Source: Mya arenaria
Lineage: Eukaryota; Mollusca; Bivalvia; Myida; Myidae
Direction: 5' to 3'
DNA: 64,000 nucleotides
Assembly (NCBI RefSeq): GCF_026914265.1
Contig: NC_069133.1
Span: forward strand, 49,660,182-49,724,181
In this document: positions 12,556 to 35,075 of the stretch, in pieces
Layout: each line of letters opens with the position of its first letter
Numbering within the stretch: the stretch's first letter is position 1
The notes under the pieces: model-generated
The model's database searches: none
The model's input: only the letters and a program-made list of their open reading frames with translations
Told to the model about the DNA's origin: nothing
Program-made: the position numbers and the translations under genes

Positions 12556-13316
12556 TTAGTTATGTGGTGCCCGTCGAATTTTCATTTCAGTCATTGAAAG
12601 ATAATGTATGCTTTCAGGCCAGGTGATCCACTTAATTCCTTTGGTAGTTACGTTACTTCCGTACAACCCGTTAAGATTTGACTTATAGTATCCTTTATAC
12701 CACCATGCTCCCGAAGATATCTCTGCACAGTTTCTCTCACTAGCATCGTTGTCTCGGTCGTTTGTTGAAAACTCATAGTTATCGTGAAACGCCAGACTAT
12801 CCCTTGCAGTACCACTGAATCCATCACGTGAAGCCTGTAGTTTTGTGATTCATCTTCTACCGAAAAACTGCTGTACTGTGCATAGCGAGTATCGTCGCCC
12901 AACTCCATGTCAATCCTCAACTCAAATTGCTCGTCGTTACATAAGGAGACAATTTTGTCATTGCCGAGCCAAAAATTGCCATCTAAGTCTCCAAAGCCAT
13001 GTTTGTACTCATCCCATGTTTTATAGAAGTCTGAAGCAGACACCCGCCTGCTCCCTGCTCCAATACGCCTTGACCTGGAAATGTCACGGGAGAAGAAGAA
13101 GGTGTAGGACTGGCCGTATACTGCGTCCTGGCGATGTACTCGTCCAGCACAGACCTCGTCCCATTTTCAACAATATCCTTCAAATTTTCACAGCAACATG
13201 TTTTTTGTGTTTGTCACGACGACCTGTTCATTTCTGCCTCATTGATCAACGTTGATCACAACCTGGCAAAAAGCGGAGCTCAAAACCAAGAGATAAAATA
13301 CAATCTGTAAGAACAT
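12556..13316 (-). pseudogene. FReD pseudogene, copy 2
   Basis: Clear paralog of the intact gene at 796-1668, with the signal-peptide region near 13,316 and the end of the domain near 12,560. Retained pieces include the KDIVEN-G-TRSVLDEYIAR segment, [30 protein letters not shown] and, in a shifted frame, the C-terminal MTEMKIRRAP. At least three lesions are visible by comparison. One extra T lies in the T-run near 13,201-13,206. About 120 bp is missing near 13,050, which removes the GGWTVFQRR core and breaks the frame. One base is missing near 12,823. Flanks on both sides match the intact copy, so it arose by tandem duplication rather than retroposition. Confidence 0.88.
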
Positions 13317-19328: not shown

Positions 19329-20240
19329 TTTTCAGTCACATGGTATCCGACGAATTTTCATTTCAGTCATAGAAAGGGACTCACGCCAGCCGGACCAGGC
19401 ATGCGAATTAGTTCCCATGCCAAATTCTGTATTTCCGAAGCCTCCGTTTAGATTTGATAAATGGCAGGCGTTATGCCACCACGCTCCAAATAAAGCTGTG
19501 CGCAATTGGATCCACTTTTATCATTGTCTCGGTCTTTTGTTGTAAACTCAAAGTTATCGTGATACGTCAGACTATCCCCTGCATTGCCACTGTATCCATC
19601 GACCTGAAGCCTGTAGTTTTCGGATTCATTTTCAATCCAAAAACTGTCGTATTTTAAATAGCGAGTTTCTCCTCATCTGTCCATATCAATCCTTAGCACA
19701 CAGGGCTTATCGCTACATAAGGAGACAATTTTGTCGTTACCGAGCCAGAAGTTGCCATCCAAATCACCAAAGCCTGCTTTATATTCATCCCAGCTCTTGT
19801 AGAAGTCTGAATACGACATACGTCGTTGGAAGACGGTCCAACCCACTTGATAGTTCCTGTTTCATCGAACGTCAAATCCGAAAGTTTCTGGCCCCTCTGG
19901 GTAGACAGTGTAAACGCCTGTGGAGGTGCTTCCCTGCTCTAGTACCGGTTGACAGTCGTCGGGAAATGTCAAAGGAGGAGTCGTTGAATTGACAGATAGT
20001 AGCTGGGTCTAGGAAACGTGTTCCTTTAACACCGACCACGTCACATTTTTAAGAATATCCTTAAGATTTCTATAGGAAGAATTTTCAGTTTTTGTGTTGT
20101 TGGCACTCTCATTGCTACCAAATTGACAAAGATTGATCATAACTTTGTAGTCAGGGGAGCTAAGAACCCCTTGGCAGTGAATGTAACTAAAAAAACACAA
20201 ACAAAATTGAAATAAGTAAGAAAATGTTGTCTTGCCCGTC
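19329..20240 (-). pseudogene. FReD pseudogene, copy 3
   Basis: More diverged fibrinogen-domain paralog. Readable segments include NLKDILKNVTWSVLKEH, the spacer [56 protein letters not shown], a calcium-site-like KDRDND, and GAWWHNACHLSNLNGG followed by SLSMTEMKIRR. The position of the start ATG in copy 1 reads ACATT here. In-frame stops lie near 20,010, near 19,865 at the equivalent of the VRCDMET segment, and near 19,676 (RIDMDR-stop-GETR). A one-base frame change lies near 19,492 between CAQLY and the GAWWH block. It cannot make a full FReD. Confidence 0.85.
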
Positions 20241-23460: not shown

Positions 23461-24550
23461 GGTGAGAGAAATTTGTGTCCCTGTAATAAATGGGGGACAA
23501 GTGATGAAGCAGAAGTAATCATTTACCAACAAAATGATAAAATTAAATATCAAAAATAAAGAGAAACAAAACATGCCTAAACAAACACAAAACATGCACC
23601 CACCTTCCTGAATGTCTCAGATAACATGATGTATAATACAAGGATACAAAACAATCAAGATTAGAGAAAGAACGGAGTACCCGGAGGAAGACCCCTTGGT
23701 GACCACAGACTAAACTCAGCAAAACTGGTAGGCTCCCAGGCTTTACTCATATTTATATTATTTAGATAATTCAGCTGTAGAAAATCATATTCCTGTGCTA
23801 AATAAAAGTTTTGCTAAATGGTGTTGTTGTTTTCTAATTACGAAGGCTGAAAAGCTATCCGTTCGTTTAGCGTAACCTCGATGTGTCATGACATATTATA
23901 TATGTGATGCAAAACCTGTCCCAAAATAAACACTTTCAACGCCGTACAAACAATACAACGAATGAAATCAGGAATAAATAACTAGACAATATCGATATCG
24001 CCATTTATTATCTGTAATGACATTATCAAAGTGAAAGTTAACCAACGATCTCTGCTGGTTCCCTGGAAAGAGACAGAAATCAATACCATCGCATCAACGT
24101 CTTATATAATTCCCTTAGTGCATTAAATGGAGTATGCAATCACTGACTAAACAACAATGTCAATGCTTTTTTTTCATTATATTAACATGCATGCACAGAT
24201 AATAATGTATTTTATTTTATGTGGCAATTTAAAGGCCGAAATTATTACGTCGGCACCCATTAATAATTAATGAATATATCTGCATTTACTAGACCAATCT
24301 AATAACAGAACATCCAGTATCCCCATAATTAAACAATGGTGATATTTCGATAGTTGCTTAATGTTTGTTGCATTGTAGCGTGTCTTGTTTTGAGATTGTT
24401 TGGCCTTAAACTTAGTGAGTTAAAACACAACACTCTTAATATACTCTTTTTAATCCTGCTTATCTAGTTCTGTAGTAATATACGCCTTTCTAAGTTGATA
24501 GTTTAAGTGACGCGTCCACAGTACGTTATATCTCCCGTCTGGTGGTGTGT
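23461..24550. other. intergenic, no gene seen
   Basis: AT-rich sequence between the repeat block and the SINE. No supported gene, RNA or array. Confidence 0.4.
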
Positions 24551-24559
24551 GTAAGCTTA

Positions 24560-24838
24560 TTTATACTCGCACTCGGGCCTTGCCCAATCGGCGTTTGGTC
24601 CGATAAGATTGTTAGTAAGTTTAGACTTTTAGGGCAAGTGCACAGACATAATTTTACCCTGGCTAGCGCTACCCTGGTTCTTTAACGTGCACCAGTGTAT
24701 AGCACTGTCCCACCGGGGACCCCAATTGAACGTCCCTCACGGAATACAATTATTATTTATAGTGGTGCGGCGGGGAATCAAACCTGCGACCACAGGATTT
24801 ACAGTCCAAGTGTGTTACCATTTGACCACGGATCCGTA
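24560..24838 (-). mobile_element. tRNA-derived SINE
   Basis: On the minus strand the head reads like a tRNA. It has an A-box-like GTGGTCAAATGGTAACAC near 24,830, a B-box GGTTTGATTCC near 24,775, and the expected spacing and pairing arms. It is followed by a body containing GGGACGTTCAATTGGGGTCC and GTGCACGTTAAAGAACC, a body type shared by the element at 32,055. It lies about 35 bp beyond the C-type lectin stop codon and could form part of that gene's 3' UTR. It is too degenerate and extended to be a functional tRNA gene. Confidence 0.7.
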
Positions 24839-24871
24839 TTTCTCATCTATATGTTTAAATGTGTTTTATAC

Positions 24872-27800
24872 TTACGACGTTTTTTGACAAATGTAACGCT
24901 GGGCGTGTGAACACGCCTCGTCATTCCAATTTGTACTGTGATGAAACTCCAGACAGTTTTCATTTCCACCGCTGTTACTGAGGAATATCTTGTTCTGCGC
25001 ACTGGCGTTGAGCACAGGGTCACCGGATGAGACCCATTTCCATTCACCTTCTAACAGAATATCGTCTGCTCCAATCCAAAAGTCAGCTGCAAGCAAGTGA
25101 ATGTTTAATTCATGTATATTATAAATATTTCAATAAATACAACAGGGACAAGCGCAGTAGTCTGATGTTCATATATAAACCTTTTTCAGAGACACAAATG
25201 CATCATAATACCCTTACCGACTTATGATGGAAATACCAAATTAAATCTGTCAGTGCAACTCGAGTACACTGGAACACACGTTACTGGGGGTTGAAAACAT
25301 TTATATCATTGTACCATTAACCTCACAAATTTCCCTGCTTTTATCAATTATTACAAATTTAAAATTATAACCCAGATTCAAGTTTAAAACAATGATGTTA
25401 TTTTGGTTATTGATATTGACAGAGCTTAAGGCGTTCATGTTATCATCATACCGAATATGTGTTAACTTTAGATGAAATATCGCAAGAAAATGTACATTAA
25501 AGGCAATACTATTTAGCTTCACGATTTCCTGTGCGAGAAATCTGTATGCTGCTGGGTCTGTAATCTCGGCGAGACGGCCATCTAATAGAGTGTTGCACAC
25601 ACTCTGAAAGTATTTATCATTCATGGAGTCGGATATACATGTTCTATAAACCAGTCAAGTTTCAATTTTTTTGGTATGTTTAAATGTTGCATAGCCTTAT
25701 ATTTGTGTTTAGGTTATCGCTTATTAATTTAACAAATCAAACATTCACATTAATAGGAAATAATAAAATGTGCTTTATTAACGCCATTGAAAACATAAAC
25801 TTAATTTGTCATCAACCTAAAATACTTTGAAATCAATCAAGATTTCAAATCAACAATCCAGTCACGCAGATAATTAAGCATTAGTACAAGTGTCTTACTT
25901 ACAATGTACCCCACTAACCTTAGCATAAGTCCAAGTTTAATGGTATCGATCGAGGTCTCCAACTTACGGCGCCATCAATCGAGGTCTCCCACTTACCTAG
26001 GCATCAATCGAGGTCTCCAACTTACCTTGACATCAATCGAGGTCTCCCACTTACCTAGGCATCAATCGAGGTCTCCCACTTACCTTGGCATTAGTCGGGG
26101 TCTCCCACTTACCTTGACATCAATCAAGGTCTCCCACTAACCTTGACATCAATCGAGGTCTCCAACTTACCTTGGTATCAATCGAGGTCTTCCATTTACA
26201 TTGTCATCAATCGAGGTCTCCTATTTACATTGGCATCAATCGAGGTCTCCCGATTACCTTGGCATCTATCGAGGTCTTCCACTTACCTAGGCATCAATCG
26301 AGATCTCCCACTTACCTTGGTATCAATCGAGGTCTCCCACTTACCTAGGCGTCAATCGAGGTCTCCCACTTACCTAGGCATCAATCGAGGTCTCCCACTT
26401 ACCTAGGCATCAATCGAGGTCTCCCACTTACCTATGCGTCAATCGAGGTCTCCCACTTACCTAGGCATCTATCGAGGTCTCCAACTTACCTAGGCATCAA
26501 TCGAGGTCTCCCACTAACCTTGACATCAATCGAGGTCTCCAACTTACCTTGGTATCAATCGAGGTCTTCCATTTACATTGTCATCAATCGAGGTCTCCTA
26601 TTTACATTGGCATCAATCGAGGTCTCCCGATTACCTTGGCATCTATCGAGGTCTTCCACTTACCTAGGCATCAATCGAGATCTCCCACTTACCTTGGTAT
26701 CAATCGAGGTCTCCCACTTACCTAGGCGTCAATCGAGGTCTCCCACTTACCTAGGCATCAATCGAGGTCTCCCACTTACCTAGGCATCAATCGAGGTCTC
26801 CCACTTACCTATGCATCTATCGAGGTCTCCAACTTACCTAGGCATCAATCGAGGTCTCCCACTTACCTAGGCGTCAATCGAGGTCTCCCACTTACCTAGG
26901 CATCAATCAAGGTCTCCCACTAGCCTTGGTATCAATCGAGGTCTCCCACTTACCTTTGTATCAATCGAGGTCTTCCATTTACCTTGTCATCAATCGAGGT
27001 CTCCCATTTACCTTGGTATCAATCGAGGTCTCCCACTTACCTTTGTATCAATCGAGGTCTCCCACTTACCTAGGCGTCAATCGAGGTCTCCCATTTACCT
27101 TGGTATCAATCGAGGTCTCCCACTTACCTAGGCATCTATCGAGGTCTCCAACTTACCTAGGCATCAATCGAGGTCTCCCACTTACCTATGCGTCAATCGA
27201 GGTCTCCCACTTACCTAGGCATCTATCGAGGTCTCCAACTTACCTAGGCATCTATCGAGGTCTCCAACTTACCTAGGCATCTATCGAGGTCTCCCACTTA
27301 CCTAGGCATCAATCGAGGTCTCCCACTTACCTAGGCGTCAATCGAGGTCTCCCACTTACCTAGGCATCTATCGAGGTCTCCCACTTACCTAGGCATCTAT
27401 CGAGGTCTCCCACTTACCTAGGCATCAATCGAGGTCTCCCACTTACCTAGGCGTCAATCGAGGTCTCCCACTTACCTAGGCATCAATCAAGGTCTCCCAC
27501 TAGCCTTGGTATCAATCGAGGTCTCCCACTTACCTTTGTATCAATCGAGGTCTTCCATTTACCTTGTCATCAATCGAGGTCTCCCATTTACCTTGGTATC
27601 AATCGAGGTCTACTACATACCTTGGCATCTATCGAGGTCTTCCACTTACCTTTTCATCACTCGAGGTCTCCCACTAACCTTGGCATCAATCGAGGTCTTC
27701 CACTTACCTTTTAATCACTCGAAGACTACCCGTACTTTAGTATGATTCGAGGTCATCCACGTACCTTGGTATCAATCGAGGTATCCCACTTATAAAATTA

Positions 27801-28280
27801 CATTTATCAGTTAAAGTGCCACCATACCTAGAAATTGACGGCGGTATCCCTCTTACCTTGGCATCAATCCATGTCTCGCGATCATGGCTGAAGTGGTAGC
27901 AAAACTCGTGGTATCGGATAAACCCGTCTCCACAATCTCCATTGACTGGATAGAGAAATTAAAACTGTATTGCAAACTTAAGGGATGTTTTCTGACAGCA
28001 CAAAGTTATTTTAAGATATCTGAGGTATATTTATGCAGGGGATCCAACGTGTTTTGTGTTTTCACACACAATATTCATTTTCTTGAGTCTTCTTGAAAAT
28101 CATTCTCCTTTAGCCATATATCTCCTTACTCTAGCAATTTTCAAAAGCAGGAAACGATACACGCTTAAACGTAAACTCAAAACATTAACTAGTGGGTAGT
28201 GTCAAGAACTTATAACATGCATACAAAATACCTGCTGCCGTTACAACTCCAAACAATACAAGAACTATCACTTCTTTCAT
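24872..28280 (-). CDS. secreted C-type lectin, four exons, 148 residues
   Basis: Proposed exons (minus): 28,280-28,232, 27,945-27,857, 25,603-25,510 and 25,086-24,872. Every intron has GT/AG ends and the phases match (1, 0, 1). Exon 1 encodes a signal peptide (MKEVIVLVLFGVVTAA). Exon 2 opens the CTLD (GDCGDGF then FCYHFSHDRETWIDAK). Exon 3 gives SVCNTLLDGRLAEITD. Exon 4 gives DFWIGADDILLEGEWKW, NENCLEF and NWNDEACSH then YICQK. Six cysteines (21, 32, 49, 122, 136, 144) fit the long-form CTLD with three disulfides. The WND motif is present, but no EPN or QPD tripeptide is visible at the sugar-specificity position, so the ligand is uncertain. Small secreted bivalve CTLs bind microbial glycans; that is a family inference. 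Intron 2 (25,604-27,856) holds a minisatellite cloned from its own donor site. The TAA stop overlaps a GTAAGT donor-like sequence. Confidence 0.88.
25936..27795. repeat. 29-bp minisatellite of splice-donor replicas (about 64 units)
   Basis: The consensus on the plus strand is ATCAATCGAGGTCTCC followed by CACTTACCTAGGC, 29 bp. On the minus strand, the direction of lectin transcription, each unit contains TAG|GTAAGT or AAG|GTAAGT preceded by a copy of the end of exon 2. The genuine exon-2 end plus donor, GAGACATGGATTGATGCCAAG then GTAAGAGGGA, differs from the commonest AAG-type unit at only about three of 31 positions. There is higher-order structure: a 13-unit block at 26,143 recurs at 26,520 (377 bp), and a 20-unit block at 26,926 recurs in part at 27,506 (580 bp). 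Plus-strand peptide-repeat ORFs here are by-products of the repeat. Confidence 0.92.
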
Positions 28281-32996: not shown

Positions 32997-34658
32997 ATGG
33001 CGGTAATGAATGGATTTCATAAAAAGGTATTTGAAAAATAATATATTACAAATAAAAAATAATAACTTTTTATATTTATACAAAATGCATATCTGTTATA
33101 ATATATATCAACGTAATATATCTACACTCAGTGACGTAGTTTAATTCAATAATAGTGTATATACAAAGTATTGACCGCATTTTAAGACGCATCAAACTTA
33201 TGCCAGCATGTATATATATCCATTACTATTCCTTATTGTTGAGTGCAAAATTGTCATGAAAATCGTTCAAAAAATATTACAAGCAAAACAATAACAATAT
33301 TGACGTCCGGTAAGGTTCACTAACCCAAATCAAGTCACCCAAAATTTCCGGATAGCATATTTTTTAACCATTTCTATAGACAAAAAATATAATACCAGTA
33401 ACGTAATTCTAAAATTTATCTCTGCGATACCGAAATGATGTTTATCTACTTTCAGACAATTGCGTGCTTGCTTCCGTTTGCGATATTGGTCAGTCTTGTA
33501 TACATCGCGCCTCCAGAAGTCCCTACTGCTGAGCTTCCCTCCGACGACATCCCTCGAATGGACAGTAAAACTAACCACTTCCGGTATAAAGATCCCGAGT
33601 TCAGCTACCAACAAACTAAAGAATATGAAACCAAGTTTGCAGAGATATTCAAAACTTTTCCGAATCATCAAAATTCCACGAAGTACCTGATTTATTTCTG
33701 TGATATTGAGTGTGGGGGATTAGGAGACCGTCTTAAAGGTATTGTAAAGGTGTATATGCTATCAATATTATCGCGACGAAGATTTGGGATACGTATGAAA
33801 GAACCTAGTGATATTGAAAACTTCCTCCAGCCTCACGTGATAGACTGGCGAGTAAATGAGGCGGAAATTGCCGGAAAAGACCGAAAAACGGTGGATTATA
33901 AGACGTTGCATGATTTTATTGCGATTGACTTAGAAACGCATGATCGTGATCCTGAAAAAGTGTTGAAAACCGATGTCATATTTATGAGGGCAAATCAAGA
34001 TTGGACAAAGACTTTAAGGAAACTGAAAGTAAGCCCAGAGAGGTTCCCCCAGATCTACCAACATCCGTCCAGTGATCTAACACGTATCATTTACAACGGG
34101 TTATTTAAACCTACAGACACGCTACAAAGACTCGTCCACAATTTCTTCGAAGAAAAGGTTGGAGGGAAAAAACTCGCGTGTCTTCATGCCAGAATGGGAG
34201 AAAGCAATCACACCCGTTATTCATTTGATGTGATAAAAACTCCCTTAGATTTTCTCAAACAATACGACTCACAACCAAACTATAAGATTATGATTGCAAC
34301 TGACAACGATCATGTCAAAAACTACTCCAGAACATTCTTCAAAAACTTCATTGATACTGACTTTAGTGGTTCTATAATGCATATTGACTACATGCAAAAC
34401 AATACAGTGGACGCACGGACGAGGGAGACTGGTTTTATGCACAGCTTATTGGATCACATGATTCTCGCGCGTTGTGACACTTTGATTCTCACAATGAGCG
34501 GTTTTGGCGTCACCGCCGCCTCGCTCCGCTACACTTCCGCCGAGCTGTTTGTCTATATGAAGAATGAAGTATTTCCGGTTCGTCGTGAACTACTGCGAGA
34601 GGTTTTCCAATGGCGGTGCATCTCCCACGCTAAGACTGGTTATGTCTGCGATGGATAA
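32997..34658 (+). CDS. type II membrane fucosyltransferase-like protein, two exons
   Basis: Best model: exon 1 at 32,997-33,026 (MAVMNGFHKK) with donor AAAAAG|GTATTT, joined in phase 0 to exon 2 at 33,456-34,658 after CTACTTTCAG, giving 410 residues. This yields a short basic cytosolic tail, a membrane anchor (TIACLLPFAILVSLVYI) and a lumenal domain, the usual Golgi glycosyltransferase layout. An unspliced start at 33,435 (MMFIYFQ) is the alternative. Motifs: CGGLGDRLKG near residue 97, HARMGE near 254, IATDND near 290 and LTMSGFG near 355. These resemble the GGLGNR and H-x-R motifs of alpha-1,2/1,6-fucosyltransferases and NodZ-like folds, which bind GDP-fucose. Donor and acceptor are inferred, not shown. 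Its last codons and stop are amplified downstream as a minisatellite. Confidence 0.78.
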
Positions 34659-35075
34659 ATATCATTTACACGCTAAGACTGGCTATACCTGCGATGGATA
34701 AATATCATTTACACGCTAAGACTGGCTATACCTGCGATGGATAAATATCATTTACACGCTAAGACTGGCTATACCTGCGATGGATAAATATCATTTACAC
34801 GCTAAGACTGGCTATACCTGCGATGGATAAATAGCATTTACACGCTAAGACTGGCTATACCTGCGATGGATAAATAGCATTTACACGCTAAGACTGGCTA
34901 TACCTGCGATGGATAAATATCATTTACACGCTAAGACTGGCTATACCTGCGATGGATAAATATCATTTACACGCTAAGACTGGCTATACCTGCGATGGAT
35001 AAATATCATTTACACGTTACCTGTTTATGCCTGCGATGGATTTATGCCATCTACATGTTAAAACCGGCTATGTCT
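34628..35075. repeat. 43-bp minisatellite derived from the end of the preceding gene
   Basis: Nine near-identical 43-bp units, CGCTAAGACTGGCTATACCT through the following TGCGATGGATAAATATCATT, are followed by about two degenerate units. The first unit is the coding end of the fucosyltransferase-like gene itself (AKTGYVCDG plus TAA), so every later unit repeats a version of the C-terminal codons and the stop codon. Confidence 0.95.

Follow-up and report, generated by a model that had tools for sequence, protein, structure and literature searches.

A mirage-type minisatellite, probably seeded by the exon 2 splice donor, in a perlucin-like lectin gene of Mya arenaria

Most of intron 2 of a perlucin-like lectin gene of Mya arenaria consists of a 29-bp tandem array, and the unit of this array spans the exon-intron boundary of the gene that carries it. 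The gene lies in the 64-kb stretch of DNA analysed here (the window). We consider the array to be, with good probability, a minisatellite of the mirage type, which was seeded by the donor of exon 2, grew by ordinary repeat turnover and is tolerated because the authentic donor stands first in the series.

The host gene is on the minus strand and has five exons, with coding sequence from 28,280 to 24,038: exon 1 (coding part, with the protein start, 28,232-28,280), exon 2 (27,857-27,945), exon 3 (25,510-25,603), exon 4 (24,876-25,086) and exon 5 (coding part including the stop, 24,038-24,062). The translation of this model is identical to the "perlucin-like protein [Mya arenaria]" (P0001) at 155/155 residues, showing the gene model to be correct, and Pfam assigns a Lectin_C domain to the product (E 1.3e-17). 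The exon 2/3 junction in the database protein is the authentic one, although the entry may itself be a mere prediction. Exon 2 ends with the residues WIDAK and the donor AAG/GTAAGA, and is followed by intron 2, of 2,253 bp (25,604-27,856, minus strand); the remaining introns have 286, 423 and 813 bp. A second copy of the lectin, by which the array might be dated, was not found within the 64-kb window. Intron 4 carries at 24,650-24,850, on the minus strand, an element with a box-B-like GGTTTGATTCCC and the look of a tRNA-derived SINE; no intact tRNA gene was found in the window by ARAGORN.

Tandem Repeats Finder places the array at 25,945-27,792, with a period of 29 and 63.8 copies. Segmentation in register gives a clean array at 25,931-27,785 (minus strand) of 64 units, one of which has 28 nt; the count refers to intronic units in register and leaves out decayed edge copies. 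The original prediction of about 64 copies in this intron is therefore confirmed. Two decayed copies at 27,786-27,848 join the end of exon 2 to the clean array. The one directly adjoining the exon (27,848-27,819) is clear, with none of 1000 shuffles aligning equally well, and the other (27,818-27,786) is marginal, with 6 such shuffles in 1000. The distal edge of the array (25,820-25,930) is also decayed, and includes a stretch near 25,846 that is a decayed copy of the unit (1/1000 shuffles as good).

Exon 2 contributes its last 21 bases and intron 2 its first 8 to the founder, or repeat copy no. 1 (27,877-27,849, minus strand). In a gap-free comparison, the founder agrees with the AAG unit form at 26/29 positions and with the TAG form at 25/29, in agreement with the earlier claim that the unit is, on the sense strand, the end of exon 2 plus its donor with about three bases changed. 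Outside the array, no place in the window matches the unit better than the founder. Next come a place at 25,846 (19/29), itself a decayed copy, and one at 34,341 on the plus strand (18/29); once the array and its decayed edges are set aside, the other matches listed for the window reach at most 18/29. A chance likeness between unit and exon was rejected, as 1000 shuffled units reach no more than 21/29 anywhere outside the array, and the maximum at the founder site alone is 18/29 in 20,000 shuffles. Copies in register follow the founder, beside the authentic boundary, and because the decayed copies follow it directly, the exon end reads as copy 1.

Unit position 8, which in the exon is the first G of a TGG codon, is C in 61 and T in 3 of the 64 units, whereas the exon keeps TGG. 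The tryptophan encoded there is conserved in, and typical of, C-type lectins. It is likely that the exon, and not the array, has the ancestral state at this codon, and since TGG is held by the exon and by none of the units, the direction would be from exon to array; on the same ground the array is thought unlikely to be the source of the exon sequence. When the array was sought elsewhere, a plus-strand ORF of part of it gave no protein at E ≤ 0.001 among 1488 candidates. DNA words of the unit match 22 viral and 13 prokaryote records, one match each; by description both collections are without molluscs, and these matches are taken as chance.

The 61 regular units comprise 29 distinct sequences, and some of the array has been copied in blocks: a run of 10 units recurs unchanged 13 units away, and a run of 5 recurs 20 units away. 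Adjacent units differ at five or more positions in eight of the first ten comparisons at the upstream edge (the 28-nt unit is involved in two of the eight). At the other end, the final five comparisons give 4, 3, 3, 5 and 11 differences, against a mean of 2.9 in the middle. The edges thus diverge more than the middle, as in the concerted-evolution pattern of mirages. To judge from the units in this one assembly, the turnover of the array is ordinary minisatellite behaviour.

The original prediction knew of no described array of this sort, a statement that does not hold, as the amphioxus mirages and the repeats of human F7, ABCA7 and CBS are such arrays. Mirages are minisatellites whose tandem repeats span exon-intron boundaries, reported in Adh3, TnC and the globin genes BflGb6 and BflGb9 of amphioxus (PMC3087553). 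Regular splicing reportedly goes on undisturbed in genes with mirages (PMC3902484, PMC3087553), and imperfect repeats are also described over the splice sites of PGBD5 (PMC3902484). The clam array shares with mirages its intragenic boundary repeats, many AG/GT signals, a concerted middle and diverged edges (PMC3087553). Unit lengths differ, being 10-72 bp in Adh3 and 150-160 bp in the globins as compared with 29 bp in the clam (PMC3087553). The repeats of BflGb6 are on the acceptor side, one haplotype having 6 units and another 3, and BflGb9 has a donor-side duplicate (PMC3087553), whereas the clam, a mollusc, has 64 donor-side copies of 29 bp.

In intron 7 of human F7, repeats of 37 bp lie on the donor side, and normally only the most upstream donor is used. 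This is a vertebrate case with a longer unit, in which splicing has been tested, whereas the clam array is known from sequence; the available part of PMC3778950 holds nothing on the F7 repeats. The 31-bp VNTR of human CBS, c.1444_1467+7(16_21), covers, according to its coordinates, 24 bases of exon and 7 of intron, near the 21 and 8 of the clam unit, and differs in its human host and lower copy number of 16-21 (PMC2630376). The 25-bp VNTR in intron 18 of human ABCA7 flanks exon 18, includes its donor and has about 12 to 427 copies, and its length reportedly goes with splicing and expression; the ABCA7 unit starts at the donor GT and has no exonic part, in contrast to the 21 exonic bases of the clam unit (PMC5954066). 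No mollusc case was found among the literature matches listed, which comprise titles and the starts of abstracts. We class the clam array as a new, long and clean member of the known, little-studied mirage kind.

At the donor place, GT is kept by 61 of the 64 units. TAG/GTAAGT is present in 31/64 units and AAG/GTAAGT in 12/64, and none of these 43/64 units falls below the real donor AAG/GTAAGA in strength, whether judged by PWM or by the energy of the duplex with the U1 5' end. The PWM is of human type, and its scores are approximate for a clam. The statement that every unit carries one of the two forms was therefore too broad, while the close match to U1 stands for these 43, and the intron does offer, as predicted, dozens of donors in the sense orientation. 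In the whole window, 47 minus-strand sites equal or exceed the real donor in strength: the 43 of the array, that donor itself and three others. The plus strand has eight, none of them in the array. Among the four donors of the gene, that of exon 2 is the strongest by PWM (7.07 versus 1.80, -4.91 and 1.47), and that of exon 3 is weak (-4.91). The first strong copy, an AAG/GTAAGT, follows the real donor at a distance of only 149 nt. Extra conservation of the donor columns across units was not seen: with position -3 left out, the mean number of variant unit types per column is 2.75 in the donor versus 2.40 elsewhere, and with this position included the donor block is the 9th most variable of 29 rotations, in a crude test that treats related unit types as independent and that weak constraint could escape. 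The donor columns are thus as variable as the rest, which gives no sign of selection for donor function.

Besides the real donor, intron 2 has 54 sites with a PWM score of at least 4, of which 53 are in units and one is in the decayed edge (25,919). Splicing from any of them leads to a premature stop, after 85 residues for 53 sites and after 83 for one (in exon 3), and for these 54 sites the stop is 286-2,126 nt upstream of the last junction. With score disregarded, a premature stop is likewise reached from every one of the 61 GT units, after 85 residues for 60 of them and after 83 for one. The common stop is a TAA at 27,739-27,737, inside the second clean unit of the array, and in TAG-form units all three reading frames contain a stop. 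As every GT unit leads to a premature stop, the array donors are predicted to be incapable of diversifying the protein, with non-productive mRNA as the only possible outcome; extensions of exon 2 in 29-nt steps, each changing frame, had been proposed as products and are not supported by this result.

The array would have begun with a 29-bp tandem duplication across the exon 2 5' splice site, as the match at the junction suggests, and slippage or unequal exchange would then have enlarged it within the intron, block duplications included. The near-consensus donors of the units would be there because the founder contained a donor. Tolerance is probably due to the authentic donor being first in the series, by analogy with human F7, and to the intronic location. 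Two observations go against this explanation. The first strong copy is close to the real donor, and 43/64 units have GTAAGT whereas the real donor has GTAAGA, a difference that pure decay would not yield. We propose that homogenisation from a founder with T at +6 explains the excess of GTAAGT. Being the first donor would also not guarantee sole use, as the retention reported for ABCA7 suggests. Use of a downstream copy gives a truncated mRNA, probably a target of NMD, and the array should therefore be neutral to slightly harmful, possibly with a mild cost through non-productive splicing. Its likeliest effect, judging from ABCA7, would be length-dependent mis-splicing. The array is most likely tolerated rather than functional.

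A different reading is that the copies compete with the true donor as a splicing rheostat, where array length sets the share of stop-bearing mRNA and lectin expression varies among individuals. We regard this as unlikely, even though it would make use of the strength of the 43 units, of the premature stop reached from all 61 GT units and of the weak donor of the next exon (PWM -4.9). For ABCA7, retention of one unit is given as 2 ± 1% and longer arrays have lower expression and more skipping of exon 19, but unit retention itself is unchanged with array length (PMC5954066). Mirages, moreover, reportedly leave splicing undisturbed (PMC3902484, PMC3087553), F7 normally uses its most upstream donor only, the real exon 2 donor is the strongest of the four in the gene, and the donor columns have no preferential conservation. 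A still smaller chance is given to the more specific proposal of a rheostat of an immune-type lectin, in which more than 40 donors would divert a tunable share of transcripts and rapid change in copy number would make lectin levels differ between individuals.

The many U1 sites could alternatively recruit U1 snRNP, either protecting the nascent transcript (telescripting) or titrating U1, and the fact that 43 of the 47 strong minus-strand sites in the 64-kb window fall in the array is in line with this. The U1-site copies of one intron are, however, few relative to cellular U1, and the lack of extra conservation in the donor columns leaves titration, which the original prediction had raised, unsupported. 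Protection against premature polyadenylation, raised with it, fares no better. Poly(A) signals are present, a point in favour of such a role, but in this short intron they number three, namely an ATTAAA in the initial part of the array (27,715), another in its final part (25,941) and an AATAAA beyond it (25,779), so that there is probably little to protect. Among the papers listed by a search of the U1 snRNP literature, not aimed at telescripting, no such array appears by title or abstract, and altogether we consider a role of this kind highly improbable. We give even less credit to dual-specific or recursive sites, for which T at -3 would make the TAG/GTAAGT units (31/64) both acceptor and donor, allowing stepwise intron removal or 29-nt micro-exons. 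AGGT can serve both ways, and human UBC reportedly carries a tandem array of such sites; compared with the UBC type, most clam units do have AGGT, but in a weak acceptor context, as the 20 nt upstream average 44% pyrimidine and 19% T versus 50-80% and 35-60% in the four acceptors of the gene. RNA structure was also considered and rejected: in the one piece that was folded, 291 nt or about ten units long, folding was no more stable than in shuffled versions (z = +1.15).

Other repeats and ORFs occur in the window. A Fibrinogen_C ORF is found at 796-1,695 and another, partial, at 12,648-13,043, while a further related stretch at 19,330-20,168 is detected by DNA match only; the matches among these regions have 71-81% identity. 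The region 43,208-64,000 contains a tandem duplication of about 9.4 kb whose copies are 97.8% identical, with a third, partial copy reaching the end of the window; the first copy carries an ORF for an MFS transporter. Besides the 29-bp array there are one of 43 bp and six other minisatellites, and the link to a coding edge was examined for the 29-bp and the 43-bp arrays. The 43-bp array, at 34,626-35,041, has 9.7 copies, the first of which consists of the last 33 bases, including the stop, of an ORF at 33,435-34,658 plus 10 downstream bases. It has no donor motifs. The ORF has no Pfam match and its status as a gene is unproven; if it is real, an array can be seeded at a coding edge and grow outward with no donor involved. 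It may just be that exon-derived repeats are able to expand at exon edges because the protein is left intact there.

As natural series of competing 5' splice sites go, the array of the lectin gene is unusually long and clean, and it could be used to test outside mammals whether the first donor wins. As far as the literature was searched, it extends exon-boundary minisatellites of the mirage kind to a mollusc. Since a second coding-edge array, that of 43 bp, is present in the same window, seeding of repeats at coding edges may be common in the genome of Mya arenaria.
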